Below, in pieces: positions 31,482 through 48,718 of a DNA stretch of 64,000 bases. The position numbers were made by a program, and so were the translations under genes. Source of the stretch: a virus; IMG/VR virus record IMGVR_UViG_3300027747_002198, positions 97,800 to 161,799 of that record. One strand, given 5' to 3'. The number at the start of each line of letters is the position of its first letter. Position 1 is the stretch's first letter. The notes below the pieces were generated by a model. That model was not told the origin of the DNA, searched no databases, and saw only the letters and a list, made by a program, of their open reading frames with translations.

Positions 31482-31676
31482 GTGAGTAAGTTTGTAGGTA
31501 AGTTTCGTAAAAATAGAAATTACAATGATGATTATAATTTTGATGTGAGGCGACACCGTGATGAACACGGAGAAGTTAAGAAGTTAATAAATCAATCATT
31601 GGAAGAAGATTTTGCTGATGAACTCGATTATGAAGAAGATGTTGTTTTCCAGCAACAAGGCTTGACAAAGTATTAA
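31482..31676 (+). CDS. Hypothetical small charged protein
   Basis: A 64-residue protein with a GTG start directly after the preceding stop and a good AGGAG upstream. The N-terminus is basic (KFVGKFRKNRNYNDD), the C-terminus acidic (EEDFADELDYEEDV). Its last 12 codons contain an inverted repeat GTTGT-N6-GCAAC and the -35 box of the next promoter. Confidence 0.6.
   Translation: MSKFVGKFRKNRNYNDDYNFDVRRHRDEHGEVKKLINQSLEEDFADELDYEEDVVFQQQGLTKY
31641..31656 (+). repeat. Promoter-upstream inverted repeat, copy 1
   Basis: GTTGTTTTCCAGCAAC, one mismatch from the GTTGT-N6-ACAAC consensus, inside the end of the previous gene. Ends 29 bases before the TATAAT of the next promoter. Confidence 0.55.
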
Positions 31677-31690
31677 AATTATCATATAAT
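31662..31690 (+). promoter_or_regulatory. Strong sigma70-like promoter
   Basis: TTGACA 31662-31667, exactly 17 bases, TATAAT 31685-31690: a textbook host-type promoter for the gene at 31718, preceded by the inverted repeat copy 1. Overlaps the end of the previous coding region. Confidence 0.8.
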
Positions 31691-31717
31691 GTAGTTTCCA
31701 TCTTAGGAGATTATATT

Positions 31718-32062
31718 ATGTTGATATACGGTTATATTCCAAAGTCTAAAAAACGTAAAGTTCCAAAATCCGTAATAGTTCAAGCGGAAGAGTGGAAAAA
31801 ACAAATTATGGCAATATCGCCAAAAGTGAACTATTCCACTTCCAAGAAGATTTCTAAAGCTATACCTTTGCCAAGAATTCCAGCAGGCCGAGAAACTCCC
31901 CAATATCTTTCCTTAGATACAGGATCAGGTGCAGCAACAAAATCAAATCCCAACATTTATACAGGCACAAAAGTCAAAGGTATTGCGACCATGCATAAAT
32001 CCAATGCTGTTCCTGTGTTTACTGATAACGAAGCAGTAGAAATCTCAAGTATGAGAAGGTAA
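31718..32062 (+). CDS. Conserved hypothetical protein (MHKSNAVPVF motif)
   Basis: A 114-residue protein with TKVKGIATMHKSNAVPVFTD and EAVEISSMRR at the C-terminus. This ending is widespread in tailed phages of many kinds, function unknown. The N-terminal half is basic (KSKKRKVPKSVIVQAEEWKK). First gene after a strong early promoter; ATG after AGGAG. Confidence 0.75.
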   Translation: MLIYGYIPKSKKRKVPKSVIVQAEEWKKQIMAISPKVNYSTSKKISKAIPLPRIPAGRETPQYLSLDTGSGAATKSNPNIYTGTKVKGIATMHKSNAVPVFTDNEAVEISSMRR

Positions 32063-32065
32063 TAT

Positions 32066-32221
32066 ATGATAACTGAACAAGAATGGCAAGAATATGAAGA
32101 ATATTGGCAGACTTTAAGCGCTGAAGAAAAAATAATTGAGCTGGATTGGTTGGAAACAATTGGAAAAGCGAAGAAAAATGGTTCAACCATCTCAAGTATT
32201 CAACCAGACACATTACAATAG
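32066..32221 (+). CDS. Small acidic hypothetical protein
   Basis: A 51-residue protein: MITEQEWQEYEEYWQTLSAE then an amphipathic helix. It starts 3 bases after the previous stop; the end meets AGAGGAAATT, the ribosome site of the next gene. Too short for a family call. Confidence 0.6.
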   Translation: MITEQEWQEYEEYWQTLSAEEKIIELDWLETIGKAKKNGSTISSIQPDTLQ

Positions 32222-32229
32222 AGGAAATT

Positions 32230-32415
32230 ATGTTACACCGAACAGAAGAATCGCAAATTTTGCGTGGAATTGATGAAATTTTCTTCAATTTGCGTCATGT
32301 ACCAGTCGATGATGTTGCTTATCATCTTGTAAAGTTCGATCCAAAGCTTGCTGACAAGTTGGCAGCCGCAATCGAGCAGAATTTTTTTGAAAAGGACGCA
32401 AAAAATGTCAAATGA
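32230..32415 (+). CDS. Small hypothetical protein
   Basis: A 61-residue helical protein (RGIDEIFFNLRHVPVDDVAY, DPKLADKLAAAIEQN). The ATG at 32230 follows GAGGAAATT; an earlier in-frame start at 32146 would overlap the previous gene heavily. Overlaps the next gene by 11 bases. Confidence 0.6.
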   Translation: MLHRTEESQILRGIDEIFFNLRHVPVDDVAYHLVKFDPKLADKLAAAIEQNFFEKDAKNVK

Positions 32416-32566
32416 TATGAATTTTTTAGCTGCTCGAGCAGACGATGAAGAAATTCCTGCGTGGAAACGCTTAGATATTGTCTGCCGAAAGTGGGCTGTT
32501 CTGTCACAATTCGAAGATGACCTTGCAAAATATCAAAAAATACAAGAAATGTATAGTTTAAAATGA
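32405..32566 (+). CDS. Small hypothetical protein
   Basis: A 53-residue protein: AARADDEEIPAWKRLDIVCR and a helical end QFEDDLAKYQKIQEMY. The ATG at 32405 follows AAAAGGACGC in the previous gene and overlaps its last codons. Overlaps the next gene by 4 bases. Confidence 0.6.
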   Translation: MSNDMNFLAARADDEEIPAWKRLDIVCRKWAVLSQFEDDLAKYQKIQEMYSLK

Positions 32567-33234
32567 AAAAAATGTTTAAATCCCGTCAGCCAATTAAAAA
32601 TTGCTTACTTTTAGAGTTCAACACGCAAAAAGATTTGGCGTTAGCATTTTGCCGAGTAGAAGAATACTACGAAGGACAAGAAAAACTGAATAGAAACTAC
32701 ATCTCATTTGTAGATTTTATCGATTTCTTCATGAAAGACGATGGTACAATTAAATATTTTAATTATTGGTCGGGCTTTAATATTCCGGGTGATGTTTTTA
32801 TGGAATGGCACCAAAAAAATATGTCGGACATAACAAAATGGGAATTTGCATTGGCTTATGAAGTTCAAAGAAAATTGGATTTGTCAAAACCATTTTATGT
32901 TATTGGTGGTAAAAAAGGTGATATGAATGTAATTGACCATGAAATTGCTCATGCGTTATATTATATGAATGCTGAATATAAAGATTTAATGGATGCCGCA
33001 AATTATCAATTCTACAAAAATGTAAGAATAGAATATTCTAAGATGGTCAAGAAATTGAAGAAGATGGGTTACGGTGATAATGTCATTAAAGATGAGGTTC
33101 AAGCTTATATGTCCACATCTACCAAAAAAGAGTTGGTAGACGATTTTGGCTTGGATTTCGATAAGATAAAGGGATTCAGAACCCTCTACAAGAAAGTGTT
33201 GTCCCGGTACAACACATCCAAGAAAAACGCTTGA
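32563..33234 (+). CDS. HExxH-containing protein, putative metalloprotease-like
   Basis: A 223-residue protein. The segment VIDHEIAHALYYM carries HEIAH (H126, E127, H130), the zinc and catalytic motif of gluzincin-type metallopeptidases, and is followed by an acidic helix. A third ligand is not obvious (a Glu in DEVQAYM, about 30-50 residues later, is a candidate). The next large gene also has an HExxH motif, so the two may cooperate. Its C-terminal end contains inverted repeat copy 2 and the -35 of the next promoter. Confidence 0.6.
   Translation: MKKMFKSRQPIKNCLLLEFNTQKDLALAFCRVEEYYEGQEKLNRNYISFVDFIDFFMKDDGTIKYFNYWSGFNIPGDVFMEWHQKNMSDITKWEFALAYEVQRKLDLSKPFYVIGGKKGDMNVIDHEIAHALYYMNAEYKDLMDAANYQFYKNVRIEYSKMVKKLKKMGYGDNVIKDEVQAYMSTSTKKELVDDFGLDFDKIKGFRTLYKKVLSRYNTSKKNA
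33198..33213 (+). repeat. Promoter-upstream inverted repeat, copy 2
   Basis: GTTGTCCCGGTACAAC, extended to a 7-base arm (GTGTTGT/ACAACAC, 33196-33215). Its end is 40 bases before TATAAT of the next promoter. Confidence 0.7.
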
Positions 33235-33258
33235 CGGTACTCTGGATTCCTGTATAAT
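33231..33258 (+). promoter_or_regulatory. Sigma70-like promoter before the VWA protein
   Basis: TTGACG 33231-33236, 16-base spacer, TATAAT 33253-33258 preceded by CCTG. The ATG is at 33286 after CAGGAGAG. Confidence 0.75.
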
Positions 33259-33285
33259 TGTATGTATTGTTAATCAGGAGAGTAT

Positions 33286-35415
33286 ATGCAAATTTTGGAA
33301 TCCAAATCACTATTAGCCAAACTAATGGCTACCGAAAATCTTATCGTTGAACAGCGTAAGGTTCAAACGGCTTCTTTTGACGTAAAGAACCGTGTATTAG
33401 TTATTCCACAATTAGACAAAAACATTTCTGGTTATCTGTACGATATGTTTGTTGGCCACGAAGTTGGCCACGCACTCTATACTCCTCTCGATGGCATGAC
33501 CAAAGCATACGAAATGAAAGTTCCACAATCAATTACAAATTGTGTTGAAGATTCTCGTATCGAAAGAAAAATCAAAAACAAATATCCTGGCATCCGTTCT
33601 TCTTTCGTTAAAGGTTACAAAGAGTTAATCGATAAAGATTTCTTTGGTACTCAAGGTGTCGATTTGAACACCCTTGGTTTTCTTGACCGCCTCAATATGT
33701 TTACCAAAGGCGGACCATCACAAGGTATTAAATTCACCAACACAGAACGTGAATTGGTTGAACTCGTAGAATCTACCGAAACTTATGATGAAGTTATTGA
33801 AGTTTCTAAAAAAATTGCCGAGTATGTCAAAGCTGAAAAAGAAGCCAAACGTAAGCAAATGGCTGAAGAAGGCGTTGAAGAAGATGAAGAATTTGAAGAA
33901 TACGATTTCGATGATGATTCTGATGAAGGCGAATTTGGCTACAACGACTTTGATGGTGAAGATGGCGAAGAATCTGAAACAGACGAATCACAAGAAGGCG
34001 AAGGTTCTGATGACGAAGAAGATGATGGATCTGAAACTGATGAAAAATCTGGTTCAGGTGGCAAAAGTACCGGCGACAAAGGTTCAAAAAGTGATGAGAT
34101 CCGTTCTTTGACTGATGATGCTTACAAACAAAACGAAAGCAAATTATTTGAACAAAGTGGCGATGCATACTATTATGGTAATATTCCAAAAATTGATTTA
34201 GATAGAGCTATTTTTGATTACAAATCACTATATAAAACATATCGTGAAGAAATGGGTAATCGTGATTTTCATTTAGATGATAAGCCTTACCAAAAACTCC
34301 GTACTGATGCAAACAAAGTAGTTTCTTATTTGGCTAAAGAATTTGAGTTGCGTAAGAACGCAGACCAAATGAAACGTGCTTCAACAGCTAAAACTGGTGA
34401 ATTGAACATGAATAAGATTTTCTCTTATAAGTTCAATGATGATATCTTCAAAAAGATTACAGTTTTACCTGGTGGTAAATCACACGGCCTTGTAATGTTT
34501 TTAGATTGGTCTGGCTCTATGTCCAACCACATTGAAAACACCGTCAAGCAATTAATTTCTTTGGTGATGTTTTGTAAGAAGGTAAATATTCCTTACGAAG
34601 TGTATGCTTTCTCATCTGAGTATGATACATATAGTCCTACACCTAAGAAAGGCGACATTGTATTAGGTGAATTTAGATTATTAAATGTTCTCTCTAGTAG
34701 AATGTCTGCTGTTGAGTTTAATTTTGCAGCAAAAACTTTGGTGAATATTTCTTGTTCTCGTTATTGTTATTCCCGTATTTTTGCTATGGGCGGAACACCA
34801 TTGAATGAAGCAGTTATTGCAGCAATGCAAATTGTACCAGAATTTCAGAAGAAATTTAAATTACAAGTTGTAAATACTATCTTCTTGACTGATGGTGAAG
34901 GTCATCGTATTAACAAAGTATACCATGAGAATCAATATGGCTTACATGGTTATGTCGGTGATCCTTTACAGACTTCTAGAAGTTATAATGCGCCGCATCC
35001 AAAATTGATTGCTCGTGATCCTGAAACAAAAAATCAGGTCGTGGTCGACCAATATAAAAATACGGCTGGTTATCTTGAGTTGTTGAAGGCAAGAACAAAT
35101 TGTAACATTGTTGGCTTTTATGTTTTATCTGGCCGTGAATTTACCAGAGCTGCATATGGTCTAGTACCTAAGGCTGCTGATCTAGATGCCTTGAGAATTC
35201 AATTCCGTAAGGATAAATCTCTTGTCATCACTTCAGCAGGTTTCGATGAATATTACTTACTCCGTTCTGAAGCACTAGATACGGATGATGATGTAGAATT
35301 CTCTGTAAAAGAGAATGCAACCACCCGTGGTTTAGTAAGTGCGTTTAGTAAGTATACTAAAAACCGTTTAATGAACCGTGTTATTTTAAATCGTTTTATA
35401 GGAATGATAGCATGA
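33286..35415 (+). CDS. VWA-domain protein with N-terminal HExxH (CobT-like)
   Basis: A 709-residue protein. The N-terminal VGHEVGHALYTP (H58, E59, H62) is a metallopeptidase-type zinc motif. Residues about 190-275 are an acidic, disordered linker. The C-terminal VWA domain has the MIDAS start FLDWSGSMS (D407, S409, S411) and a later FLTDGEGHR. This layout resembles CobT-type VWA proteins, which act with MoxR/CobS AAA ATPases in metal insertion or remodelling; a CobS-like gene is at 49635. Target unknown. It follows its own promoter. Confidence 0.75.
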   Translation: MQILESKSLLAKLMATENLIVEQRKVQTASFDVKNRVLVIPQLDKNISGYLYDMFVGHEVGHALYTPLDGMTKAYEMKVPQSITNCVEDSRIERKIKNKYPGIRSSFVKGYKELIDKDFFGTQGVDLNTLGFLDRLNMFTKGGPSQGIKFTNTERELVELVESTETYDEVIEVSKKIAEYVKAEKEAKRKQMAEEGVEEDEEFEEYDFDDDSDEGEFGYNDFDGEDGEESETDESQEGEGSDDEEDDGSETDEKSGSGGKSTGDKGSKSDEIRSLTDDAYKQNESKLFEQSGDAYYYGNIPKIDLDRAIFDYKSLYKTYREEMGNRDFHLDDKPYQKLRTDANKVVSYLAKEFELRKNADQMKRASTAKTGELNMNKIFSYKFNDDIFKKITVLPGGKSHGLVMFLDWSGSMSNHIENTVKQLISLVMFCKKVNIPYEVYAFSSEYDTYSPTPKKGDIVLGEFRLLNVLSSRMSAVEFNFAAKTLVNISCSRYCYSRIFAMGGTPLNEAVIAAMQIVPEFQKKFKLQVVNTIFLTDGEGHRINKVYHENQYGLHGYVGDPLQTSRSYNAPHPKLIARDPETKNQVVVDQYKNTAGYLELLKARTNCNIVGFYVLSGREFTRAAYGLVPKAADLDALRIQFRKDKSLVITSAGFDEYYLLRSEALDTDDDVEFSVKENATTRGLVSAFSKYTKNRLMNRVILNRFIGMIA

Positions 35416-35657
35416 TTAAGGAAGAAATTGTAACTTTTGTGGGTGATGCAGGACAACGACAAGCTGAATTGTCCTGCTTAACTAGTGCCATGAGTACGCC
35501 ACTTTGGATTGTAGACTTTAAAAAGAATAACGAATGTTTCATGACTAGGTTTTACCATACTGAATCTGAAGCACAATCTATTGCTGAAAAATATGCCTAC
35601 GAAGGAGTTGTAGGTGAACCAAGTAACAAAATGTTATTGAACGAAAATGGCCAATGA
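35412..35657 (+). CDS. Small hypothetical protein
   Basis: An 81-residue protein overlapping the previous gene by 4 bases. TPLWIVDFKKNNECFMTRFY then an acidic helix (ESEAQSIAEKYAYEG). No family recognised. Overlaps the next gene by 11 bases. Confidence 0.6.
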   Translation: MIKEEIVTFVGDAGQRQAELSCLTSAMSTPLWIVDFKKNNECFMTRFYHTESEAQSIAEKYAYEGVVGEPSNKMLLNENGQ

Positions 35658-35922
35658 TATTGTATTACCCGAACCTTTTGATCCAAGAAAAATTTATAAT
35701 GAATTAATTAAAAGGTGCAAGCGAGTTAGAGAGTGGTTTATATTTTGTATTGTTGATGAAAGTTGGATTCCAAAGGAAGATTTACCATTTGAAATTGTGA
35801 TCATGAACGGAATATATTGTTGCCGTGTGATTACACCAACTCGTAATGAAGCAATTAAAATTATAACTAATACTCTACCTGTGATTAGATTTATTGATGA
35901 AGGTTTAAATGATGATGAATGA
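35647..35922 (+). CDS. Small hypothetical protein
   Basis: A 91-residue protein with YNELIKRCKRVREWFIFC and IVIMNGIYCCRVITPTRNEA, mixed alpha/beta with several Cys. No family recognised. Overlaps the next gene by 14 bases. Confidence 0.55.
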   Translation: MANDIVLPEPFDPRKIYNELIKRCKRVREWFIFCIVDESWIPKEDLPFEIVIMNGIYCCRVITPTRNEAIKIITNTLPVIRFIDEGLNDDE

Positions 35923-36193
35923 AAAAACAAAAGAAACACTATTAATATTACAAGAAGAATGTGCTGAAGTAATTCAGGCAGCCTCCAAGGTATTTCGCTT
36001 TGGTGAAGAATCCAGATGGCCATCCGAAGATAGTGCTTCAACACATGAATGTCTGGCTATGGAAGTTGGCCAAGTATTGGCCATGATTGATATTCTGATT
36101 GAAAGTGGTTATATTTCGGATGAAGCCGTCAATGGTGCCAGAATATACAAGAAAGAAAAACTAAAGATTTGGTCCAGTATCTATGCCGATTGA
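35909..36193 (+). CDS. MazG-like nucleotide pyrophosphohydrolase candidate
   Basis: A 94-residue protein with LLILQEECAEVIQAASKVFR near the start, the EExxEVxxA helix typical of MazG/all-alpha NTP-PPases, and a second helix TAMEVGQVLAMIDILIE-like segment (AMEVGQVLAMIDI) giving further acidic residues. Such enzymes hydrolyse NTPs to NMPs. Three ATGs in a row open the frame; the first is used here. Overlaps a small gene at the end. Confidence 0.65.
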   Translation: MMMNEKTKETLLILQEECAEVIQAASKVFRFGEESRWPSEDSASTHECLAMEVGQVLAMIDILIESGYISDEAVNGARIYKKEKLKIWSSIYAD

Positions 36194-36362
36194 AGAACTA
36201 CTATTACGTTTAAAAACGATTTGGATTTGGTCGCCAAAGCATTCTACTGTTAGAACTAAGGTTGCTGAACTAATACAAAATCTTGGCGGTATTGTACCTC
36301 AAGAATATTCTGAACCTCAAGGTCAAGCACCAATAGTAGTACCAGACCAAGAGAGTAATTAG
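36183..36362 (+). CDS. Small hypothetical protein
   Basis: A 59-residue protein starting at ATG 36183 in the end of the MazG-like gene (TATGCCGATTGA). Sequence MPIEELLLRLKTIWIWSPKH then a Gln/Pro-rich tail (PQEYSEPQGQAPIVVPDQ). Unknown function. Confidence 0.55.
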   Translation: MPIEELLLRLKTIWIWSPKHSTVRTKVAELIQNLGGIVPQEYSEPQGQAPIVVPDQESN

Positions 36363-36402
36363 AACACCAAATTCACAAGAAGTAGATATATACCAATATC
36401 CA

Positions 36403-36549
36403 TTACATACCTCTCATAGAATAGAAATCACGAACTAAACGCTCCACTTCTGTGTGAGTTTGTGGATTCTTAGAACGTACATAGTATTCTAACTGTGAGG
36501 TTGTTTTGAGGAAAGATAAGGCATTGAGAATGGATTTAAAGAATTTCAT
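36403..36549 (-). CDS. Small minus-strand protein
   Basis: A 48-residue protein on the minus strand: MKFFKSILNALSFLKTTSQL, then EYYVRSKNPQTHTEVERLVR and DFYSMRGM. It has AAAGGA 5 bases before the ATG at 36549 and a minus-strand TATAAATA 58 bases upstream. The YxxSKNPQxxxEVERLxR pattern recalls small DUF3563-like or similar phage proteins. It lies in a plus-strand gap (36363-36625) that otherwise has no plus-strand gene. Function unknown. Confidence 0.7.
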   Translation of the reverse strand: MKFFKSILNALSFLKTTSQLEYYVRSKNPQTHTEVERLVRDFYSMRGM

Positions 36550-36606
36550 TTTTGTCCTTTTGAGATTTAATTTAAACACCAATTGTGTTAGTGTTAACGA
36601 TATTAG

Positions 36607-36614
36607 TATTTATA
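36607..36614 (-). promoter_or_regulatory. Minus-strand late promoter TATAAATA
   Basis: The plus strand reads TATTTATA; on the minus strand it is a perfect TATAAATA, 58 bases before the ATG at 36549. It lies just upstream of the plus-strand gene at 36626, so late transcription would run away from it. Confidence 0.7.
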
Positions 36615-36625
36615 CTTATAGAAGA

Positions 36626-36856
36626 ATGAGAAATCTATTTTTACCAAAAAAATTTAAAGGTATACTAGGCGATGCTTTGGTATGTCTATCCCTTTTGGTA
36701 CTCTTTGCATCTGTAATCTCAATGGGGCTTGACGCAGAGTTCAGTCGTGTGATAAAATATGATTGTGAAATAGCAGAGATATCACCTGATTTTACTCCAG
36801 CGATGAAACAAGAATGTCGTAAACTTAGATATGAAAAACAAAGGTACAAAACATGA
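36626..36856 (+). CDS. Small membrane protein
   Basis: A 76-residue protein with one hydrophobic helix (GDALVCLSLLVLFASVISMG, about 15-34), then an acidic/Cys-containing segment (KYDCEIAEISPDFTPAMKQE) and a basic tail. The ATG at 36626 follows AGAAGA and is preferred to an upstream ATG at 36506 that would make a long hybrid over the minus-strand promoter. Likely an inner-membrane protein with its C-terminus exported; function unknown. Confidence 0.6.
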   Translation: MRNLFLPKKFKGILGDALVCLSLLVLFASVISMGLDAEFSRVIKYDCEIAEISPDFTPAMKQECRKLRYEKQRYKT

Positions 36857-37083
36857 CATCATTTACCACCGAAGATAGACTTAACGCAGAAAAACTAAAA
36901 GAAACGCCACCAGATTGGGACGCAACCTCCGCACCTTGGCCGTTTACCGAAGCAGATATAGTAGAAGGCGAAACAGATGATCCTAACCTCTCATCTCCAG
37001 CAGTTTTTCAAGCGCTTCCGGACACTCTCGATCCAATACCATACGAAGAAAAATACAAAGAGTATCTAAAAAGTTCCTCATAA
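36853..37083 (+). CDS. Small acidic hypothetical protein
   Basis: A 76-residue acidic, Pro-rich protein (ETPPDWDATSAPWPFTEADI, ALPDTLDPIPYEEKYKEYL). Overlaps the previous gene by 4 bases. No family recognised. Confidence 0.6.
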   Translation: MTSFTTEDRLNAEKLKETPPDWDATSAPWPFTEADIVEGETDDPNLSSPAVFQALPDTLDPIPYEEKYKEYLKSSS

Positions 37084-37101
37084 CCCGCAAGGTTCTATAT
37101 T

Positions 37102-37389
37102 ATGTTCCAACTTGAAATTCAATACTTCTTCCCTCTTACTGAGCAGATTCCGTTAGGCCTCGATTATACCGGATGTGAGAAACCGAAATTAACGGTAGTA
37201 TCAGAAGGTACGGGAATATATTTGGCTACTCCCACTTGGTCTACGACCATTGCTCCCACTCTCTCAGTCAAACCACAAAACTCAGTTGGCCAACTCAACA
37301 TTGGTGGAATCGAGATTGGCATGGAGAAAGAACCGAAGTGGTATCAGAAGGTACTATACAAACTATTAGGATTTAATTGGAAAAAATAA
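37102..37389 (+). CDS. Hypothetical protein
   Basis: A 95-residue protein, beta-rich (LEIQYFFPLTEQIPLGLDY, TPTWSTTIAPTLSVKPQN) with a helical Trp/Lys end (WYQKVLYKLLGFNWKK). ATG lies after GGTTCTATATT. No family. Stop overlaps the start of the next gene (TAATG). Confidence 0.6.
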   Translation: MFQLEIQYFFPLTEQIPLGLDYTGCEKPKLTVVSEGTGIYLATPTWSTTIAPTLSVKPQNSVGQLNIGGIEIGMEKEPKWYQKVLYKLLGFNWKK

Positions 37390-38376: not shown

Positions 38377-38409
38377 AAAAATTCCTGGAACTCGTGGTAC
38401 CTCCAGGAA
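38376..38409 (-). terminator. Minus-strand intrinsic terminator candidate
   Basis: Perfect 8-bp stem TTCCTGGA/TCCAGGAA (38382-38389 with 38402-38409, 12-base loop). On the minus strand the stem is followed by six T (plus-strand AAAAAA 38376-38381). It would stop leftward transcripts entering the gene at 37813; on the plus strand it is followed by A, so weaker there. Confidence 0.55.
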
Positions 38410-38428
38410 AAAATTTCGAATCCTCTCG

Positions 38429-38487: not shown

Positions 38488-38498
38488 ATCCTAGGAGC

Positions 38499-38514
38499 GT
38501 TGCTCCCATACAAC
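38499..38514 (+). repeat. Promoter-upstream inverted repeat, copy 3
   Basis: GTTGCTCCCATACAAC, one mismatch from consensus, also forming part of a GGAGC-GTT-GCTCC hairpin (38494-38506). Lies in the non-coding stretch 38377-38746. Confidence 0.5.
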
Positions 38515-38573: not shown

Positions 38574-38589
38574 GTTGCTCCAATACAAC
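38574..38589 (+). repeat. Promoter-upstream inverted repeat, copy 4
   Basis: GTTGCTCCAATACAAC, one mismatch from consensus. Its end is 82 bases before the TATAAT at 38671. Confidence 0.55.
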
Positions 38590-38648: not shown

Positions 38649-38676
38649 TTTACATATTCCACCAAGCGTGTATAAT
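38649..38676 (+). promoter_or_regulatory. Sigma70-like promoter
   Basis: TTTACA 38649-38654, 16-base spacer, TATAAT 38671-38676 in the shared context GTGTATAATGG. Serves the gene at 38747. Confidence 0.7.
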
Positions 38677-38714: not shown

Positions 38715-38730
38715 GTTGTTTCCACACAAC
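38715..38730 (+). repeat. Inverted repeat copy 5 (leader of the 38747 gene)
   Basis: GTTGTTTCCACACAAC, perfect arms, but downstream of the promoter -10 at 38671, in the leader 17 bases before the ATG at 38747. It could act on the mRNA rather than on the DNA. Confidence 0.6.
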
Positions 38731-39613: not shown

Positions 39614-39913
39614 ATGAATATAGTGGAAGATAATGATTTAGACAATATTGTATTATGCCACGAGGTATTGAATATTGCTCAGGAAGTATTATCAGAGCGG
39701 GATTATGATATTGTTTTACATTATATTCTCGATAATGGTACTAATAAGCAGTTAGGTAGTGATTATGGTATATCTGGTTCTCGTATTATTCAGATATACA
39801 ATAGAGCAATAAGGACTATTATCGGTGCTTTATCCTATGAGAAAATGGTATGGATGAATGGTCAATATTATAAAGTTATTAAAAGTAAATTATTAGATTG
39901 TGAAAGGGTTTGA
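39614..39913 (+). CDS. Stand-alone sigma-region-4-like DNA-binding protein
   Basis: A 99-residue protein. LSERDYDIVLHYILDNGTNK then QLGSDYGISGSRIIQIYNRA/IRTI has the helix-turn-helix form of sigma70 region 4.2 (the part that reads -35 boxes), here without regions 1-3. The C-terminus is basic. ATG after ACAGGAGCATTATCAGT. It might act as a transcription regulator or as a partial sigma factor for the early promoters of this region. Family assignment is by pattern only. Confidence 0.6.
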   Translation: MNIVEDNDLDNIVLCHEVLNIAQEVLSERDYDIVLHYILDNGTNKQLGSDYGISGSRIIQIYNRAIRTIIGALSYEKMVWMNGQYYKVIKSKLLDCERV

Positions 39914-40657: not shown

Positions 40658-40661
40658 TACC

Positions 40662-40677
40662 GTTGTTCCGATACAAC
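40662..40677 (+). repeat. Promoter-upstream inverted repeat, copy 6
   Basis: GTTGTTCCGATACAAC, perfect arms, right after the stop of the previous gene and 72 bases before TATAAT of the next promoter. Confidence 0.75.
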
Positions 40678-40726: not shown

Positions 40727-40754
40727 TTGTGGTGTATTCCAATGCCTGTATAAT
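40727..40754 (+). promoter_or_regulatory. Sigma70-like promoter
   Basis: TTGTGG 40727-40732, 16-base spacer, TATAAT 40749-40754 in the conserved context TGCCTGTATAATGG. Serves the gp88-like gene at 40843. The -35 is weak, so an activator is likely. Confidence 0.7.
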
Positions 40755-40842
40755 GGTTTTATTCATTGAGCAGTATATTAAGCATTAAAACGGTTAAGCA
40801 GCATTCTATTGATTATTGATTTTATTAGAAAAGGTTTATATT

Positions 40843-42544: not shown

Positions 42545-42545
42545 T

Positions 42546-42963: not shown

Positions 42964-43151
42964 TGGAAGTATATATTGTAAAATCCGGCCAGTTAATTGA
43001 TTTGGTTGGATGGGAATGGTTGAATCTCAGAGCTTTTACTGATTATGATAAAGCAGAAGAATTTATGTGGTCAGTTGAAAAACAGATTTCACCAGAGCGA
43101 TTTGGTGTGAAGGAAGATGTAGAAATTGAAACATTAACATTGGAGCAATAA
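42963..43151 (+). CDS. Hypothetical protein
   Basis: A 62-residue protein: EVYIVKSGQLIDLVGWEWLN then AEEFMWSVEKQISPERFGVK and an acidic end. Joined to both neighbours by single-base overlaps. No family. Confidence 0.55.
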   Translation: MEVYIVKSGQLIDLVGWEWLNLRAFTDYDKAEEFMWSVEKQISPERFGVKEDVEIETLTLEQ

Positions 43152-43294
43152 TGAGTAAATGGGACTTTGTGGTAAGTGAGTTAAAATCGTTGCAACAAGG
43201 TTTTGAGGATCATCAGGCGATTACCGAATTGTTTGTGGAACAAAAGCTGTTGTGTGGATATAAAATCGTTGATAAAAAGGTATACAAAGCATAA
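43151..43294 (+). CDS. Small hypothetical protein
   Basis: A 47-residue protein (SELKSLQQGFEDHQAITELF, CGYKIVDKKVYKA). One-base overlap with the previous gene. CATAAATA, a late-promoter variant, spans its stop codon. Confidence 0.5.
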   Translation: MSKWDFVVSELKSLQQGFEDHQAITELFVEQKLLCGYKIVDKKVYKA

Positions 43295-43297
43295 ATA
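43290..43297 (+). promoter_or_regulatory. Late-promoter-like CATAAATA
   Basis: Spans the stop of the previous gene, 60 bases before the HNH-AP2 gene at 43357. Fits late expression of a homing endonuclease. A GTAGGC/GCCTAC hairpin (43301-43306 with 43326-43331) follows at once. Confidence 0.4.
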
Positions 43298-43356
43298 GGT
43301 GTAGGCCACGATATTACCAGTATCCGCCTACTCTAACATTGTAAAGGAATGCCAGC

Positions 43357-43881
43357 ATGATTATATATCATAATCTCCAAACCGTAGACCAAAACCTATT
43401 GCACCAATTGTTTGAATACCATGATGGTGAATTGTATTGGAAAATCAAACCAGCAATTAGAATCAGAAAAGGTGATATTGTTGGTAATGTGCGTGAAGAT
43501 ACTGGTTATCGTGTAGTTTCTTTATTTGATAAGAAATATGCGGTACATCGGTTGATTTTCTTATATCATCACGGTTATATTCCTAAAATGTTGGATCATA
43601 TTGATGGTAATAAATCAAATAATAGAATTGAAAATTTAAGAGAATGTGATTCGTATCAAAATAATCAAAATGCCAAAAGAAGAAAAGATAATACTTCAGG
43701 TATTAAAGGTGTTTACTTGTTGAAAACTGGAAAATATGCCAAAAATAATAAGTGGATGGCATTTTTTAATAGTAACAAAAAAAGAATATATTTGGGAGTA
43801 TTTGAAAAGAAAGAAGATGCTGAAAATATTATTCGTGAATATAGAGAAAAACACCACGGTGAATTTACTAATCATGGATAG
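43357..43881 (+). CDS. HNH endonuclease with AP2 DNA-binding domain
   Basis: A 174-residue protein. The HNH part has AVHRLIFLYHHGYIPKMLDH, then IDGNKSNNRIENLRECDS (H, N and N/H positions), and the C-terminal AP2-like part has KAKRRKDNTSGIKGVYL-type (RRKDNTSGIKGVYL), WMAFFNSNKKRIYLGVFEKK. It is a typical free-standing mobile nuclease. ATG after AAAGGAATGCCAGC. A late-type motif stands 60 bases before it. Confidence 0.85.
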   Translation: MIIYHNLQTVDQNLLHQLFEYHDGELYWKIKPAIRIRKGDIVGNVREDTGYRVVSLFDKKYAVHRLIFLYHHGYIPKMLDHIDGNKSNNRIENLRECDSYQNNQNAKRRKDNTSGIKGVYLLKTGKYAKNNKWMAFFNSNKKRIYLGVFEKKEDAENIIREYREKHHGEFTNHG

Positions 43882-43882
43882 T

Positions 43883-43898
43883 GTTGTTTGGATACAAC
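43883..43898 (+). repeat. Promoter-upstream inverted repeat, copy 7
   Basis: GTTGTTTGGATACAAC, arms extended to GTGTTGT/ACAACAC (43881-43900), right after the HNH gene stop and 72 bases before TATAAT. Confidence 0.75.
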
Positions 43899-43947
43899 AC
43901 AATTTGAAGTATTGACCAAAGAATCTGTATTAAACCTAACACAAAGC

Positions 43948-43975
43948 TTGTAGTATTAACCAATGCCTGTATAAT
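43948..43975 (+). promoter_or_regulatory. Sigma70-like promoter
   Basis: TTGTAG 43948-43953, 16-base spacer, TATAAT 43970-43975 in the shared context TGCCTGTATAATGG. Serves the gene at 44003. Confidence 0.7.
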
Positions 43976-44002
43976 GGTACTATAAATTGATGAGGAGTTA
44001 TT

Positions 44003-44287
44003 ATGTTGAAATTTGAAGGAATTGCCAAAGTAGGCGACATTATAAGAGCGTATGATTTCCGTCCAATGGCTGGTCGTGACGATGCGTTTATTGAAGGTGT
44101 GGTTATTGATGATAATAATAATGAGCAAGGTTTTAAAGCATTTAAAGTAAAAGTTACTGCTGACAAGTTTCTGAAATATGAAACCAAGGCAACCAAGAAT
44201 AATCGCATTGGTTTAGATATTTTCGTACCACACGAAACTGGTTTTATGGAATTTGATTTTAGAGTAATAAATTTAAGTAAAGTATAA
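44003..44287 (+). CDS. Hypothetical protein, beta-rich
   Basis: A 94-residue protein with GIAKVGDIIRAYDFRPMAGR, GVVIDDNNNEQGFKAFKVKV and RIGLDIFVPHETGFMEFDFR: beta-barrel-like. ATG after GAGGAGTTATT. Terminator follows. Confidence 0.65.
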   Translation: MLKFEGIAKVGDIIRAYDFRPMAGRDDAFIEGVVIDDNNNEQGFKAFKVKVTADKFLKYETKATKNNRIGLDIFVPHETGFMEFDFRVINLSKV

Positions 44288-44294
44288 TGTTTGA

Positions 44295-44331
44295 ATGTGG
44301 CATCCTGTCGGGTGTAAGACCACATCTTTTT
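44295..44331 (+). terminator. Rho-independent terminator
   Basis: ATGTGG pairs with CCACAT, with inner CATCC/GGGTG pairs around a TGTC loop; the stem is followed by CTTTTT. Ends the transcript from the promoter at 43948 after one gene. Confidence 0.75.
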
Positions 44332-44341
44332 AGGATATATT

Positions 44342-44656
44342 ATGGATTATCGTTTAAAAGAAATAGCAATGTGCCAAGTATTAGAAAATTATCAGGCACC
44401 AATTGGTTTTCGTTCAAAGTTTAAAGGTGTACCAATTGGTCAATATGAAGATGTAAAACGATTTATTGATTTTACCAAGTATTATGTAATGTTCCGTGGT
44501 CCTCGTAATCGTGGTGCATCATCTACTCGTAAGCGTGATGCTAAAGCGTTTGATATTTACCAGCGTAGCAATCGTGATACGCAATTGATTAGAACCGAGC
44601 GTGAAGCATTTATGCGTGGCGTTGAATGGCAAAGGAATCAGTATGTCAATATATAA
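44342..44656 (+). CDS. Hypothetical basic protein
   Basis: A 104-residue basic protein (LKEIAMCQVLENYQAPIGFR, KYYVMFRGPRNRGASSTRKR). No family recognised. It follows the terminator directly; TTTTAGGATATATT is its leader. Overlaps the next gene by 14 bases. Confidence 0.6.
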   Translation: MDYRLKEIAMCQVLENYQAPIGFRSKFKGVPIGQYEDVKRFIDFTKYYVMFRGPRNRGASSTRKRDAKAFDIYQRSNRDTQLIRTEREAFMRGVEWQRNQYVNI

Positions 44657-44966
44657 AGATTTAGATTTATGCGTGCAAGAGTATGTTGCACATTTGCAAA
44701 AAGATTATGATAGTAAAGGCGGCAACCAATTCATAGAGTTTCATTATGAATTAGGTCGTAAATATATCCATGTGATTATGCACCATGTTGGTCAATTTAG
44801 TGTTAATCAACGCAGTTCACATTCATGGATTATGATTGATGACGATAAGAAGTTTAAGCGTGGCGATATATTAAAATCGGCAAGTTGGCGTGCTCCTGCT
44901 CGTAACTTTTCCCGTGGTAATGTATTATGTGGTGGTTTTAAACATATTAAATGGGCTGGCGTATGA
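44643..44966 (+). CDS. Hypothetical protein
   Basis: A 107-residue protein (DLDLCVQEYVAHLQKDYDSK, IEFHYELGRKYIHVIMHHVG, HSWIMIDDDKKFKRGDILK). The ATG at 44643 gives MSIYKDLD. The pattern, with a His-rich beta strand and a RGDILK segment, recurs in phages without assigned function. Confidence 0.6.
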   Translation: MSIYKDLDLCVQEYVAHLQKDYDSKGGNQFIEFHYELGRKYIHVIMHHVGQFSVNQRSSHSWIMIDDDKKFKRGDILKSASWRAPARNFSRGNVLCGGFKHIKWAGV

Positions 44967-45154
44967 GTAGATTTATTGATGGTTTGATAACTGATATAGT
45001 TAATGATGATATGTTAGTCATTAAGAAAATGAAAAAGGCAGAGATTGTCAAATTCACCGAAACATTATTACAAAATAATTATCGTGAATTACTTGATGAA
45101 TCTATTATTGAAGAATACGAAGAACGGTTTGATACACATTTAGCGAGATATTGA
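44963..45154 (+). CDS. Small hypothetical protein
   Basis: A 63-residue helical protein (FIDGLITDIVNDDMLVIKKM, FTETLLQNNYRELLDESIIE). Start at ATG 44963, overlapping the previous stop by 4 bases. No family. Confidence 0.55.
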   Translation: MSRFIDGLITDIVNDDMLVIKKMKKAEIVKFTETLLQNNYRELLDESIIEEYEERFDTHLARY

Positions 45155-45156
45155 TT

Positions 45157-45408
45157 ATGAGTCACCATTTAGATAATTTTACTGTTGATGAGTTGCAAAG
45201 TTATTTTTCGGATTTCCATAAAGATTATTATGGATTCCGTCCTCGCTTTGCAACACCAGAGCAATGGCAAAACCGTGATTGGTTAGTAGAACATATTAAT
45301 GCCATTCATGACGCCATGGATGAATTGAAGAAAACACCAGAAGGCCGTGAGCAATTGCGTGCAGAAGGCTGGGTTATTGATGAACCTTATATTGATATAG
45401 AGGATTAA
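45157..45408 (+). CDS. Conserved small phage protein
   Basis: An 83-residue protein with RFATPEQWQNRDWLVEHINA, IHDAMDELKKTPEGREQLRA and EGWVIDE, a pattern common in phage small proteins of unknown function. ATG after the previous stop. Confidence 0.65.
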   Translation: MSHHLDNFTVDELQSYFSDFHKDYYGFRPRFATPEQWQNRDWLVEHINAIHDAMDELKKTPEGREQLRAEGWVIDEPYIDIED

Positions 45409-45410
45409 TT

Positions 45411-45644
45411 ATGAGTTATGATGCGGATTATGAAAGCGTATACATGGTTGAGTTTGAATCTGGTAGAACCATTCATGTGCAATTCTTTGATGTTCAGGAA
45501 GTAAAAGAGTATTGTGCAGATAACCATACTGGTGATGTTATCAAATCAATCTATAAAGAAGTTTATTGTAATTTTGCAGAAGATGATTGTGATGGCCAAC
45601 CTGATGAAGCTCAAGAATGGCACGATTTTGATCCGGAGTGTTAA
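45411..45644 (+). CDS. Acidic hypothetical protein
   Basis: A 77-residue very acidic protein (VYMVEFESGRTIHVQFFDVQ, NFAEDDCDGQPDEAQEWHDF). ATG after GAGGATTA. No family. Single-base overlap with the next gene. Confidence 0.6.
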   Translation: MSYDADYESVYMVEFESGRTIHVQFFDVQEVKEYCADNHTGDVIKSIYKEVYCNFAEDDCDGQPDEAQEWHDFDPEC

Positions 45645-46015
45645 TGTCAATTAGATATTCAACCAATTGGATGGGTGTTATCAATATGCAATGGTATATT
45701 GACCGTGGATTAATCAAAAGAGTAACACGAACACTTACCGAAGATTCTAAATTAACTGGCAGAAAAGCTGGTGAATCATTTGAGTATAATGAGATTACTC
45801 AATCATATTCGTGTGGTCGTATTGATTGCCGTGGTGATGATTTAGGACCATATGGTGCAGAGATTAGTATACCGCCAATGACTGAGCAAGATTGGGGTAG
45901 GTTTAGTAGATGGTTGAATACATTTGAAACTGATGCAATGTGGAAATTCAAAGATATTGTTGAATTGTATGAGAGAGATAATCCAAAAATAACTTGGGCT
46001 GAGGGATATGAATAA
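45644..46015 (+). CDS. Hypothetical protein
   Basis: A 123-residue protein with Trp-rich ends (NWMGVINMQWYIDRGLIKRV, DWGRFSRWLNTFETDAMWKF) and a CGRIDCRGDDLG segment with two Cys. No family recognised. Overlaps the next small gene by 8 bases. Confidence 0.6.
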   Translation: MSIRYSTNWMGVINMQWYIDRGLIKRVTRTLTEDSKLTGRKAGESFEYNEITQSYSCGRIDCRGDDLGPYGAEISIPPMTEQDWGRFSRWLNTFETDAMWKFKDIVELYERDNPKITWAEGYE

Positions 46016-46166
46016 ACATTGTAAAGGATGTAAATCACACTACAATGCTGGTCATGAGAAAACCAGTCCTTATGCCAAAGCTCATAATGATTGGTGTCGT
46101 AAATTTGGTAAAACTGCCAAAGATGCTATTGGTGAATGTAAATTGAAAAATGGAAAAACATTATGA
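46008..46166 (+). CDS. Small Cys-containing protein
   Basis: A 52-residue protein with HCKGCKSHYN (two Cys), then WCRKFGKTAKDAIGECKLK (two more), a possible single zinc site. ATG after GAGGGAT, overlapping the previous stop. Unknown function. Confidence 0.6.
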   Translation: MNKHCKGCKSHYNAGHEKTSPYAKAHNDWCRKFGKTAKDAIGECKLKNGKTL

Positions 46167-46471
46167 AAGATAATGTTGTAGAATTTGCCAAATGGTGGAA
46201 ATCTGTTTACAAAGAGAAATTGGCCGCTGTATATATTGATGAAAGATTTACAAACGATAAGAGATATGAAATGAAAACAATAACAGAACATAACGACCAA
46301 GCCATTCAAACAGTTGCTCAATTAGCAAGCAGAACTATGGCTGGTGTTTTGTGCGACAAATGCAAGGTGGAAATGTATTACATGAACCCAAATATGGTGT
46401 TGGCTTGTATTCCACCAAAAATGACTGTGGTTTGCCCAAACTGTAGTGAAGTTAATTACAAAATTAGATAA
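46163..46471 (+). CDS. Zinc-ribbon-like protein
   Basis: A 102-residue protein with helical N-terminus (VEFAKWWKSVYKEKLAAVYI) and a C-terminal ribbon: LCDKCKVEMYYM and VVCPNCSEVNYKIR (two CxxC knuckles). Possible transcription or DNA-linked adaptor. Overlaps the previous stop by 4 bases. Confidence 0.6.
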   Translation: MKDNVVEFAKWWKSVYKEKLAAVYIDERFTNDKRYEMKTITEHNDQAIQTVAQLASRTMAGVLCDKCKVEMYYMNPNMVLACIPPKMTVVCPNCSEVNYKIR

Positions 46472-46487
46472 GAAAGGCACGATAAGA

Positions 46488-46718
46488 ATGAACGAGAAGA
46501 TTAAAGAACTTGCTATCAAATCATGGTTAGTTAGTGAACATAAAGGTAAACTACTGAGTTGCTATCGGGAAGATGTGGACTTGACAAAATACTTGGAAGA
46601 GTTTGCTGAGTTAATTGTTCAGGAATGTGCTGAATGGATTAAAAATACTGATTCAGATCCAGACATTGGTGAGGAAGATGCTAGAGCATTATTAGAACAT
46701 TTTGGAGTAGAAAAATGA
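46488..46718 (+). CDS. Conserved small phage protein
   Basis: A 76-residue protein; EEFAELIVQECAEWIKNTD and EEDARALLEHFGVEK resemble a common phage hypothetical family. The ATG at 46488 follows AGAAAGGCACGATAAG. No activity known. Confidence 0.6.
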   Translation: MNEKIKELAIKSWLVSEHKGKLLSCYREDVDLTKYLEEFAELIVQECAEWIKNTDSDPDIGEEDARALLEHFGVEK

Positions 46719-46909
46719 AAGTAAGATATGTAACACGACAGAATCATGTGACCCAAGAGGATATAGATTTTTATGGCCGTGAGCACCAAATAGGCTGGAG
46801 AGCGGTTAAAGAAAAGTTAGAGGACAAGGTTGGTCCTATATTACAGTATTGGGACTATGAGAATCAAACTTGGGTAGATGCTGAATCAGTTACGGAATAT
46901 AGAAAATGA
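46715..46909 (+). CDS. Hypothetical protein
   Basis: A 64-residue protein (VTQEDIDFYGREHQIGWRAV, VGPILQYWDYENQTWVDAES). Overlaps the genes either side by 4 bases. No family. Confidence 0.55.
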   Translation: MKVRYVTRQNHVTQEDIDFYGREHQIGWRAVKEKLEDKVGPILQYWDYENQTWVDAESVTEYRK

Positions 46910-47094
46910 ACACAATTTATCCAACAACCACGATTGAATCACAAGGCCTTCAATACGCTTCAATAATTGATATGGGTGATAAGGTTAGGATTCAATTGTA
47001 TCCTAACCAAGTGAATAAAACAATGTTTATTAATATTGATAAACGAGTGGTATCTGAATTGATTAGAGCTTTAGAAAAGGTAGAACAATGGTAA
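46906..47094 (+). CDS. Hypothetical protein
   Basis: A 62-residue beta-type protein (YASIIDMGDKVRIQLYPNQV, FINIDKRVVSELIRALEKVE). ATG after the previous ATGA overlap. No family. Confidence 0.55.
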   Translation: MNTIYPTTTIESQGLQYASIIDMGDKVRIQLYPNQVNKTMFINIDKRVVSELIRALEKVEQW

Positions 47095-47357
47095 TGAACG
47101 CAAATGAATTAGCAGATGAATTAGAAGACTGTGAGCCATACAATGTTATGGATACCCATTTATTTAAAGCCACTGCCACCATGCTACGCCAGCAACAAAC
47201 AGATTTAGATATTGCATTGAATTATATCAAACAATATGAATTACAAATAAAAGATTTGAAACAACAGGTGGCATTTTTAGAGGACTGGCGTGATACATGG
47301 TCACCTACTATTAAGCAGTTGATGAATATTAATGTAAAGGTTAATGATGGGAATTAG
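47088..47357 (+). CDS. Hypothetical helical protein
   Basis: An 89-residue protein with NELADELEDCEPYNVMDTHL then a coiled coil (TMLRQQQTDLDIALNYIKQY). The NELADELE start and the LRQQQ helix occur in many small phage proteins. Start at 47088 or 47094. Confidence 0.6.
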   Translation: MVMNANELADELEDCEPYNVMDTHLFKATATMLRQQQTDLDIALNYIKQYELQIKDLKQQVAFLEDWRDTWSPTIKQLMNINVKVNDGN

Positions 47358-47742
47358 TGCGTATAAAGAAGTTACAGAATGGAACAATCCAGAGTTCCGA
47401 GTACCTCAAAATGTATATCTTTTTGATGGTAAGTCCAATGCTTTGGCATATGTTAAAGAAAGTGGTGGTGAGATTTTTATATTTAAAAAGCCATTACCAA
47501 TTGATACTCGCAGGCGTAAGTTTATCAAGGTCAAACATGAAGCTTTGGACTCGTATGGCGCAACGGTGGTGCTTGATGTACCTAACCTTGAGAATACGCC
47601 TCATTGGTCAGTTAAGAGTGATTCAGGCAAGACCTATACAGTCACATTGGAGAGTGGTAGATATACCTGTAATTGTATTGGATTTGCATATAGGGGAGCT
47701 TGCAAGCACTCAAAACAAATTAAAGAGGAACAAGAGAAATGA
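47344..47742 (+). CDS. SWIM zinc-finger protein
   Basis: A 132-residue protein. The C-terminal YTVTLESGRYTCNCIGFAYR then GACKHSKQIKEEQ is a SWIM-type zinc finger (C-x-C-xn-C-x-H). SWIM domains bind DNA, RNA or proteins, for example in nuclease and helicase-linked factors. The N-terminal part (VPQNVYLFDGKSNALAYVKE) is beta-type. It is alone among small genes; function unknown. Confidence 0.7.
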   Translation: MMGISAYKEVTEWNNPEFRVPQNVYLFDGKSNALAYVKESGGEIFIFKKPLPIDTRRRKFIKVKHEALDSYGATVVLDVPNLENTPHWSVKSDSGKTYTVTLESGRYTCNCIGFAYRGACKHSKQIKEEQEK

Positions 47743-47849
47743 AGTGCAAACACAACGGATGTGAAAAAGAAAGGTTTTGGCGATTATGGGCTGTTGGGTA
47801 TTGCTATGACCATGCTTTTAAATATGCAAGAAAGGCACAAGAGAAATGA
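47739..47849 (+). CDS. Small Cys/His-containing protein
   Basis: A 36-residue protein: MKCKHNGCEKERFWRLWAVG, YCYDHAFKYARK, with C-x-H and C-x-x-x-H like spacing for one zinc. ATGA overlap on both sides. Confidence 0.5.
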   Translation: MKCKHNGCEKERFWRLWAVGYCYDHAFKYARKAQEK

Positions 47850-47980
47850 AAATTAATTTTTATAAAACATCATGGTTTAAAGGCGGAGCATTTCATTGGA
47901 ATAATATTCGCCTCAATAATGGTGATGTATATACAAGTTATCGATTTGGACCAATATTAATAAAGGTGAGAAAATGCTAA
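47846..47980 (+). CDS. Small hypothetical protein
   Basis: A 44-residue protein (INFYKTSWFKGGAFHWNNIR, LNNGDVYTSYRFGPILIKVR), beta-type. Overlaps neighbours by 4 and 7 bases. Confidence 0.5.
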   Translation: MKINFYKTSWFKGGAFHWNNIRLNNGDVYTSYRFGPILIKVRKC

Positions 47981-48216
47981 TTAAGTTATTAAATGTAAAA
48001 GAAAATCCTGATGGTTCTGCCAATGTGGATGTTAAATATGATGAAGAAGGAATGAAGCTTCTTATCGAGCGTGGAGTTATCTCCATTTTGGAAGATTATA
48101 TAAAACAAGAAAAAGGTGGACATGAACCACAATCCGAACGCAGAACATCTACGCCAGCTTTTATTCAAGCAAATAAAAGACATAACATTAAAAGGCGGAA
48201 TAAGCTTGTATTATGA
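47974..48216 (+). CDS. Hypothetical protein with possible out-of-frame tail
   Basis: An 80-residue protein. The first 50 residues look like ordinary protein (IKLLNVKENPDGSANVDVKY, LLIERGVISILEDYIKQEKG). The end (SERRTSTPAFIQANKRHNIK) overlaps a convincing gene in another frame (48122-48289) for 95 bases and may be simply the consequence of that frame. Confidence 0.5.
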   Translation: MLIKLLNVKENPDGSANVDVKYDEEGMKLLIERGVISILEDYIKQEKGGHEPQSERRTSTPAFIQANKRHNIKRRNKLVL

Positions 48217-48289
48217 TATACTAGATGAAATTGAACGCTGTGATATTATGGACGAAGAAGATTTAGACAGAAGATTATTAAAGAAATGA
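48122..48289 (+). CDS. Small hypothetical protein
   Basis: A 55-residue protein (NPNAEHLRQLLFKQIKDITL, YYDILDEIERCDIMDEEDLD, then RRLLKK). ATG after AAAAGGTGGAC, a better ribosome site than its host frame. A helical, acidic protein, unknown function. Confidence 0.55.
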   Translation: MNHNPNAEHLRQLLFKQIKDITLKGGISLYYDILDEIERCDIMDEEDLDRRLLKK

Positions 48290-48292
48290 ATA

Positions 48293-48430
48293 ATGAAACC
48301 CTTTTTGATTATACTAAAATATAATGGTTATACTAAAACCACTATAATAAACCATATTGATGCTGGTTCAGCATTGGCTTTAGCATATAAAAAGTTCCCT
48401 GATGTATTAAAATGTAGGATTATAAAATGA
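48293..48430 (+). CDS. Small hypothetical protein
   Basis: A 45-residue protein with a hydrophobic start (MKPFLIILKYNGYTKTTIIN) and AGSALALAYKKFPDVLKCRI. 3-base gap from the previous gene, ATGA overlap with the next. Confidence 0.5.
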   Translation: MKPFLIILKYNGYTKTTIINHIDAGSALALAYKKFPDVLKCRIIK

Positions 48431-48654
48431 TGAATATCTATATTGGTAAATATTGGGTGCCATTCCCATCCTCCGAATACGGTGGTACTTGGAGTGTGAT
48501 TGCTGAGAATGAGGAACAATGCGTGGAACTACTTAAAGGTGGTGCATGGGATGACCGATACGAAGATGAGATTGCTGGTGTGGTCGCTGATTCCAAGCGC
48601 TTTGGATTGACTGGTGACCCAGCACCAATGGTCGTGGACACCTTCTATACCTGA
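48427..48654 (+). CDS. Conserved small phage protein
   Basis: A 75-residue protein with WVPFPSSEYGGTWSVIAENE and EQCVELLKG, KRFGLTGDPAPMVVDTFYT: a pattern known in many phages, unknown function. Followed by inverted repeat copy 8 after 4 bases. Confidence 0.65.
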   Translation: MMNIYIGKYWVPFPSSEYGGTWSVIAENEEQCVELLKGGAWDDRYEDEIAGVVADSKRFGLTGDPAPMVVDTFYT

Positions 48655-48658
48655 TGGT

Positions 48659-48674
48659 GTTGTACCGATACAAC
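48659..48674 (+). repeat. Promoter-upstream inverted repeat, copy 8
   Basis: GTTGTACCGATACAAC, perfect arms, 39 bases before the TATAAT of the next promoter, right after a stop codon. Confidence 0.75.
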
Positions 48675-48690
48675 AGTCGCAATATATTTC

Positions 48691-48718
48691 TTGACTTACC
48701 TAGTGGTACCTGTATAAT
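48691..48718 (+). promoter_or_regulatory. Sigma70-like promoter before the AAA genes
   Basis: TTGACT 48691-48696, 16-base spacer, TATAAT 48713-48718 in the context CCTGTATAATGG. Starts the two AAA-ATPase genes. Confidence 0.75.

Follow-up and report, generated by a model that had tools for sequence, protein, structure and literature searches.

A palindromic candidate operator upstream of sigma70-like promoters in a T4-like phage and its uncultured relatives

The stretch analyzed here (the window, 64,000 nucleotides) covers positions 97,800-161,799 of the IMG/VR record IMGVR_UViG_3300027747_002198 (161,799 bp, labeled G000). It carries a 16-base inverted repeat, GTTGT-N6-ACAAC, most copies of which lie upstream of sigma70-like promoters. 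The window has a GC content of 35%, and its gene content is T4-like. Among cultured phages, the UvsW protein of the window phage is closest to that of Methylophilales phage Melnitz (56%), followed by Pelagibacter phage Mosig (54%), both of which are classified in Kyanoviridae. This T4-like phage is tentatively regarded as coming from freshwater, on the basis of lake names on a few related contigs.

Repeats and promoters in the window

Eight copies of the repeat, five perfect and three with one mismatch, had been described in a first-pass annotation, together with six sigma70-like promoters downstream of them. All were recovered at the same positions, and the distances from the end of the repeat to TATAAT (to be referred to as d) were reproduced as 29, 40, 82, 72, 72 and 39. 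The distance from the end of the repeat to the -35 element will be referred to as the gap. The features are as follows.

31641-31656, plus strand: putative operator copy GTTGTTTTCCAGCAAC, one mismatch; d = 29 to TATAAT
31662-31690, plus strand: promoter TTGACA-17-TATAAT, for the gene of a 114-residue protein at 31718
33198-33213, plus strand: putative operator copy GTTGTCCCGGTACAAC; d = 40
33231-33258, plus strand: promoter TTGACG-16-TG-TATAAT, for the gene of a 709-residue protein at 33286 (phrog_459)
38499-38514, plus strand: putative operator copy GTTGCTCCCATACAAC, one mismatch; 75 bp upstream of the 38574 copy
38574-38589, plus strand: putative operator copy GTTGCTCCAATACAAC, one mismatch; d = 82, a distance also found in record G004
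38649-38676, plus strand: promoter TTTACA-16-TG-TATAAT
38715-38730, plus strand: perfect copy in the presumed leader, downstream of the promoter at 38671
40662-40677, plus strand: putative operator copy GTTGTTCCGATACAAC; d = 72
40727-40754, plus strand: promoter TTGTGG-16-TG-TATAAT, for the gene of a 258-residue protein at 40816 (phrog_1617)
43883-43898, plus strand: putative operator copy GTTGTTTGGATACAAC; d = 72
43948-43975, plus strand: promoter TTGTAG-16-TG-TATAAT, for the gene of a 94-residue protein at 44003
48659-48674, plus strand: putative operator copy GTTGTACCGATACAAC; d = 39
48691-48718, plus strand: promoter TTGACT-16-TG-TATAAT, upstream of 48742 (ATPase), 49635 (CobS-like) and 50860 (winged helix)

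The -10 element is TATAAT in all six promoters. Five of them have a 16-bp spacer and TG ahead of the -10 element, as in T4-type early promoters, and the sixth (31685) is TTGACA-17-TATAAT. The -35 element is TTGACN in three promoters and TTTACA or TTGT(G/A)G in the rest. The repeats are located at or immediately past the stop codon of the preceding gene.

The repeat is far more frequent than in shuffled sequence. When up to one mismatch is tolerated, the window contains 12 matches, as compared to 2.4 +/- 1.6 after shuffling, and none of 100 shuffles reaches 12; the four matches beyond the eight copies (10063, 14941, 49848 and 62335) are background. In the whole record, exact GTTGT-N6-ACAAC is observed 6 times (0.23 expected) and GTTGY-N6-RCAAC 11 times (0.61 expected). 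Nine of these 11 sites are at promoters, and two, at record positions 31125 and 81603, are within long genes. One perfect copy outside the window (record position 86918, d = 40), absent from the first-pass annotation, is associated with a seventh promoter of this type, TTGACA-17 with TATAAT, at record position 86,973.

There are also sigma70-like promoters with a TTGAC -35 element and TATAAT that have no repeat, at record positions 264, 73739, 83210, 105231, 153990, 157694 and 160398. The presence of strong promoters both with and without the repeat suggests two promoter classes in the window phage.

Several loci have additional features. Between 38499 and 38730, one promoter is flanked by three repeats, of which two precede it and the third falls within the presumed leader, and loop formation could occur with this layout. 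At the 43883 locus, a decayed promoter copy is found 44 bp upstream of the active promoter, and in the relative L164 the promoter of the gene of the 94-residue protein is at this proximal position (gap 6); a weaker trace of a promoter copy is located 45 bp upstream at the 40662 locus. A gene for an HNH homing-type endonuclease (43357-43881) ends one base ahead of the 43883 site. The protein encoded at 31718-32062 belongs, with those of relatives, to a family of about 114 residues with a conserved C-terminal motif (GIGTMHKSNAVPVFTD.EA..ISSMRR), and its gene is often found immediately downstream of the repeat.

Helical phasing and occurrence in other phages

The distances in the window phage (d = 29, 40, 82, 72, 72, 39 and 40) are phased at 10.5 bp with R = 0.957 (p of about 2e-5, computed against random distances of 25-89). 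With only the five distinct distances the p value is 0.001.

Twenty contigs of relatives were retrieved with the protein encoded at 48742, several of the large ones being sampled as stretches. In most of them repeats are found upstream of sigma70-like promoters, and the orthologous ATPase gene (48742) itself has an upstream site in most of these relatives. After thinning of near-identical promoters, group A1 comprised 78 sites. Their gaps have main peaks at 7 (6-8, 36 sites) and 17 (16-17, 21 sites), with further gaps of 28-30, 49, 54 and 59, and R(10.5) is 0.71. The sites with gaps above 12 are in phase with the peak at 7, to a degree that none of 20,000 jittered sets reached.

Orthologous promoters provide a stronger test of phasing, because the gene is the same. 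For the phrog_459 gene the gap is 6-8 or 16-17, with none between. The gaps are 6, 17 and 49 for the gene of the 94-residue protein, 4, 14-16 and 49 for the phrog_1617 gene, 8 and 17 for the gene of an 82-residue protein, and 14 and 25 for that of a 71-residue protein. The element is also located directly upstream of the winged-helix gene in G006 (gap 7) and L140 (gap 28). The gene at 31718 has gaps of 5-8 across 18 orthologous promoters, including that of the window phage. The spacing of orthologous promoters therefore shifts mostly by about whole turns, with exceptions in several sets of group B (see below) and at the sites with a gap of 21 in G007, G008 and G010. The upstream placement and helical phasing put forward in the first-pass annotation are supported in the window phage, in its relatives and at orthologous promoters.

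The element was also sought in 2.9 million viral contigs, as the repeat followed by TTGAC and TATAAT, with a control in which the arms of the repeat were swapped. At least 120 stretches have the real pattern, as compared to 63 for the arm-swapped control (complete scan). Among the matches listed, the gaps peak at 6-8, 9-11, 15-17 and 20-22, with none at 3-5 or 18. In the control the gaps are spread far more evenly, apart from small clusters at 16 and 22-23. Some of the loci (to be referred to as group B) are in phages with little similarity to the window phage. One contig of this group, L105, has a UvsW protein about 50% identical to those of the jumbo phages PA5oct, Atu_ph07 and Phosso, the kinship of the group being read from this contig. 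In G020 (L089), a lone repeat is located between divergent promoters, with d = 26 on both sides at 15748 and distances of 25 and 26 bp at 12687, as expected if one symmetric operator serves two promoters.

Among cultured phages the element is scarce. Nine T4-like phages (Melnitz, Mosig, HTVC008M, five cyanophages and T4) have 0-2 sites each, absent or at background level. GTTGY-N6-RCAAC does not occur in T4, and S-PM2, P-SSM2, S-CRM01, DSL-LC02 and syn9 have 0-1 copies each. In six further cultured phages the element is not linked to promoters. A tight palindrome-promoter pattern was found in just 21 scattered stretches among 84,980 bacterial and archaeal genomes, and with no excess of matches there the element was rejected as a feature of bacterial chromosomes. 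Three of the 21 stretches (L297, L312 and L316) are fragments of related phages, on contigs in metagenome-assembled genomes from lakes (LaPlata, ErkenSummer) that are binned as Bacteroidetes. Their proteins are up to 76% identical to those of the window phage, and by this similarity the contigs are probably misbinned phage sequences.

Nature of the site and candidate binding proteins

The consensus of 166 thinned promoter-linked sites is TGTTGY-N6-RCAACA. A T precedes the repeat in 83% of the sites and an A follows it in 87%, while positions 5 and 12 are Y and R, respectively. The Y/R preference is partly built in, as many loci were retrieved with a Y/R pattern, but the flanking T and A are not.

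It is proposed with moderate confidence that TGTTGY-N6-RCAACA serves as the operator for a dimeric regulator that acts from upstream on sigma70 polymerase, with a winged-helix protein as the first candidate. We infer that a protein recognizes the site as a symmetric dimer, with TGTTGY as the half-site and the half-site centers about 12 bp apart. The dimer would be bound upstream of the -35 element in a set of sigma70-type phage promoters and would contact the RNA polymerase of the host from a single helical face, like a class I activator or phi29 p4. Such one-face contact would let the site move by whole turns. With the start placed 7 bases after the -10 element, the site centers derived from d would be near -50, -60, -71, -92 and -102 from the presumed start. 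Judging from this promoter geometry, the regulator is most likely an activator. Activation is the default reading because the sites lie upstream only, and we infer it here in preference to repression, together with a phage origin for the protein. The scarcity of the element in cultured phages and in prokaryotic genomes favors a phage-encoded binder.

Two proteins had been suggested as the binder in the first-pass annotation, and one of them is favored here.

50860-51207, plus strand: winged-helix protein, 115 residues, top candidate for the binder, of no known family
39614-39913, plus strand: sigma70 region-4-like protein, 99 residues, weighed as the binder and not favored

The protein encoded at 50860 is the best candidate, as indicated by its fold, the position of its gene and its distribution among phages. 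G000, G004, G007, G010, G022 and G025, which are all the near-complete group A records with the element, encode it, and it was not found in the nine cultured T4-like phages that have no element. An AlphaFold model shows a winged helix (order H-H-H-E-E), with a mean predicted local distance difference test score (pLDDT) of 74 and about 90 in the core. The top Foldseek matches are regulators of the Fur, PerR, SmtB, MarR and PadR types, and scans of the family with Pfam and PHROG gave nothing significant. The gene follows those of the ATPase and the CobS-like protein, downstream of the 48659 site.

Three other proteins of the window phage were set aside as the binder. The sigma-4-like protein has no match in the element-bearing record G010, and its match in G007 has only 42% coverage. 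A 61-residue zinc-ribbon protein encoded at 28006 is not favored, being very acidic. The 114-residue product of the gene at 31718 is conserved but matched no DNA-binding family.

Several observations weigh against the proposed activator and its assignment. Many of the promoters with a repeat have near-consensus -35 and -10 elements and would need no activator. The commonest site center, near -50, is a position where CRP works only weakly at sigma70 promoters (PMC2859248), so the contact here must differ from that of CRP. The Foldseek matches of the winged-helix protein all have E values of 0.03 or above, and eleven other genes match its pattern of presence in eight genomes (five with the element and three without). 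The protein was found neither in group B, which has the element, nor in G016 and G018, which are short contigs. Moreover, the phasing is not universal: the sites in the subclades G016-18 (gap 14) and G020 (gaps 2-4 and 24-25) have a different phase, those with a gap of 21 in G007, G008 and G010 are out of phase, and group B is only weakly phased (R = 0.26). Part of the phasing may also be due to shared ancestry of promoters, as suggested by the decayed copy near 43883 and the weaker trace near 40662, and promoter duplication could inflate it.

The absence of the winged-helix protein from group B keeps in contention a host transcription factor that is exploited by the phages, although this is rather unlikely. 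A shared host factor would explain the element in both phage groups, the jumbo-phage group being unrelated to the window phage, and there is a precedent in the same phage family in marine cyanophages, which may exploit a host factor in this way through NtcA boxes (PMC3037559). However, the prokaryotic genomes gave only the 21 scattered stretches, three of them on contigs of related phages, with the right host possibly outside the set, and related Methylophilales and Pelagibacter phages do not have the element.

It is likewise doubtful that the binder is another phage protein, such as the product of another gene restricted to element-bearing phages. The window phage has about a dozen genes that are shared by all five near-complete element-bearing relatives and missing from the three relatives without the element, and the winged-helix protein was not found in group B. 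Among the genes scanned or read, however, that of the winged-helix protein is the only one whose product has a DNA-binding fold. The remaining restricted genes are glycosyltransferase-like or chitinase-like by sequence or have no assignment, and the sigma-4-like protein has the wrong distribution.

A protein that mainly represses, by holding polymerase at strong promoters or blocking it at the switch from early to later transcription, is unlikely. Extra contacts may hinder escape at the many promoters that are near consensus at -35 and -10, and the cluster at 38.5-38.7 kb, with sites on both sides of the promoter, would suit a repression loop. On the other hand, all the sites except 38715 are upstream of the -35 element, away from the core promoter and start, and the two promoters with weak -35 elements (TTGTGG and TTGTAG) maintain an in-phase site at d = 72.

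It is highly improbable that the repeats act as RNA hairpins or terminators to stop transcription from upstream and were spread as promoter cassettes, like the PeSLs of T4-type phages, or that they are only terminators of the upstream genes. Their location next to stop codons and the local duplication of promoter sequence at 43883 would agree with this, as would the longer stem of some group B repeats and the T-rich tract after it. However, none of the eight window copies has a terminator on the transcribed strand or is followed by a T-run, and the only terminator-like copy (33198) is so on the strand opposite to transcription. The flanking pairs and the 5/12 pair show no covariation in the 166 sites, 46 of which have the non-pairing C5/A12, and a terminator would not need whole-turn spacing. 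Given the flanks without covariation and the wrong strand of the sole terminator-like copy, the element is, by its sequence, a DNA site and not an RNA hairpin. In L288 (8509), L292 (8528 and 11757) and L293 (1972), all of group B, the repeats are extended outward (GGGTGTTG...CAACACCC) ahead of the T-rich stretch, and such repeats may double as terminators.

Taken more broadly, the binding of a winged-helix protein to TGTTGY-N6-RCAACA, with sites moved mostly by whole turns, could constitute an undescribed regulon of T4-like phages. This regulon would be widespread in uncultured phages, occupy a place filled by neither MotA nor the late sigma factor, and have a parallel in an unrelated jumbo-phage group. 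This broader proposal is tentative, and we hold it as possible rather than probable.

Significance and comparison with known systems

No description of the element turned up in a literature search in which subscription papers were sparsely represented. Activators that bind upstream and sites in helical phase are already known, while this operator and this protein family in T4-like phages appear to be new. Cyanophages and the methylophage Melnitz have been reported to be without identifiable middle promoters (PMC9004378). If the proposal is true, phased palindromic operators in the uncultured relatives of these phages would add a distinct level of transcription control to a widespread family of aquatic phages, and the regulator would be a new dimeric DNA-binding module. 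The orthologous promoters are a natural series of spacer mutants that displays the spacings that survive evolution, and contact from one face of the helix can as a result be tested with few constructs. The sharing of the element by unrelated phages also raises the question of commonly used host factors.

The sites for late-gene activation by P2 Ogr and P4 Delta are TGT-N12-ACA (PMC3931495), which TGTTGY-N6-RCAACA formally contains. GTTG and CAAC are shared as half-sites with the P2 pF site, but they are separated by 14 bp there (N14) and by 8 bp here (N8). With this difference in spacing, and with no match to the Ogr/Delta zinc-finger activators (PF04606) at E values up to 1 among eight records of phages that carry the element, some of which are fragmentary, these proteins were rejected as the binder.

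The phi29 protein p4 binds upstream of promoters and can also repress. In comparison, contact with the alpha subunit of polymerase is only presumed here, and no relative of p4 turned up, none having been sought.

The class I sites of CRP are centered at -61.5, -71.5, -82.5 and -92.5 (PMC11894529). As with these, the site here is symmetric, is upstream of the -35 element and has centers whole turns apart, those near -60, -71 and -92 being used. However, the commonest center is near -50 and one near -102 is also used, with the start inferred from the -10 element. The consensus of the 166 sites also differs from the CRP site, TGTGA-N6-TCACA, and no binder of the CRP type was identified.

NtcA boxes are likewise short symmetric sites at phage promoters in the same family, Kyanoviridae (PMC3037559), but their sequence, GTA-N8-TAC, is different from TGTTGY-N6-RCAACA. 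The early promoters of T4 are similar in that a T4-like phage relies on host sigma70 polymerase, with -35, TGn and -10 elements (PMC2988021). In the middle promoters of T4, which depend on MotA and AsiA, the MotA box is centered at -30 and replaces the -35 element, whereas the repeat described here lies upstream of a -35 element (TTGACN or TTGNNN) that is present.

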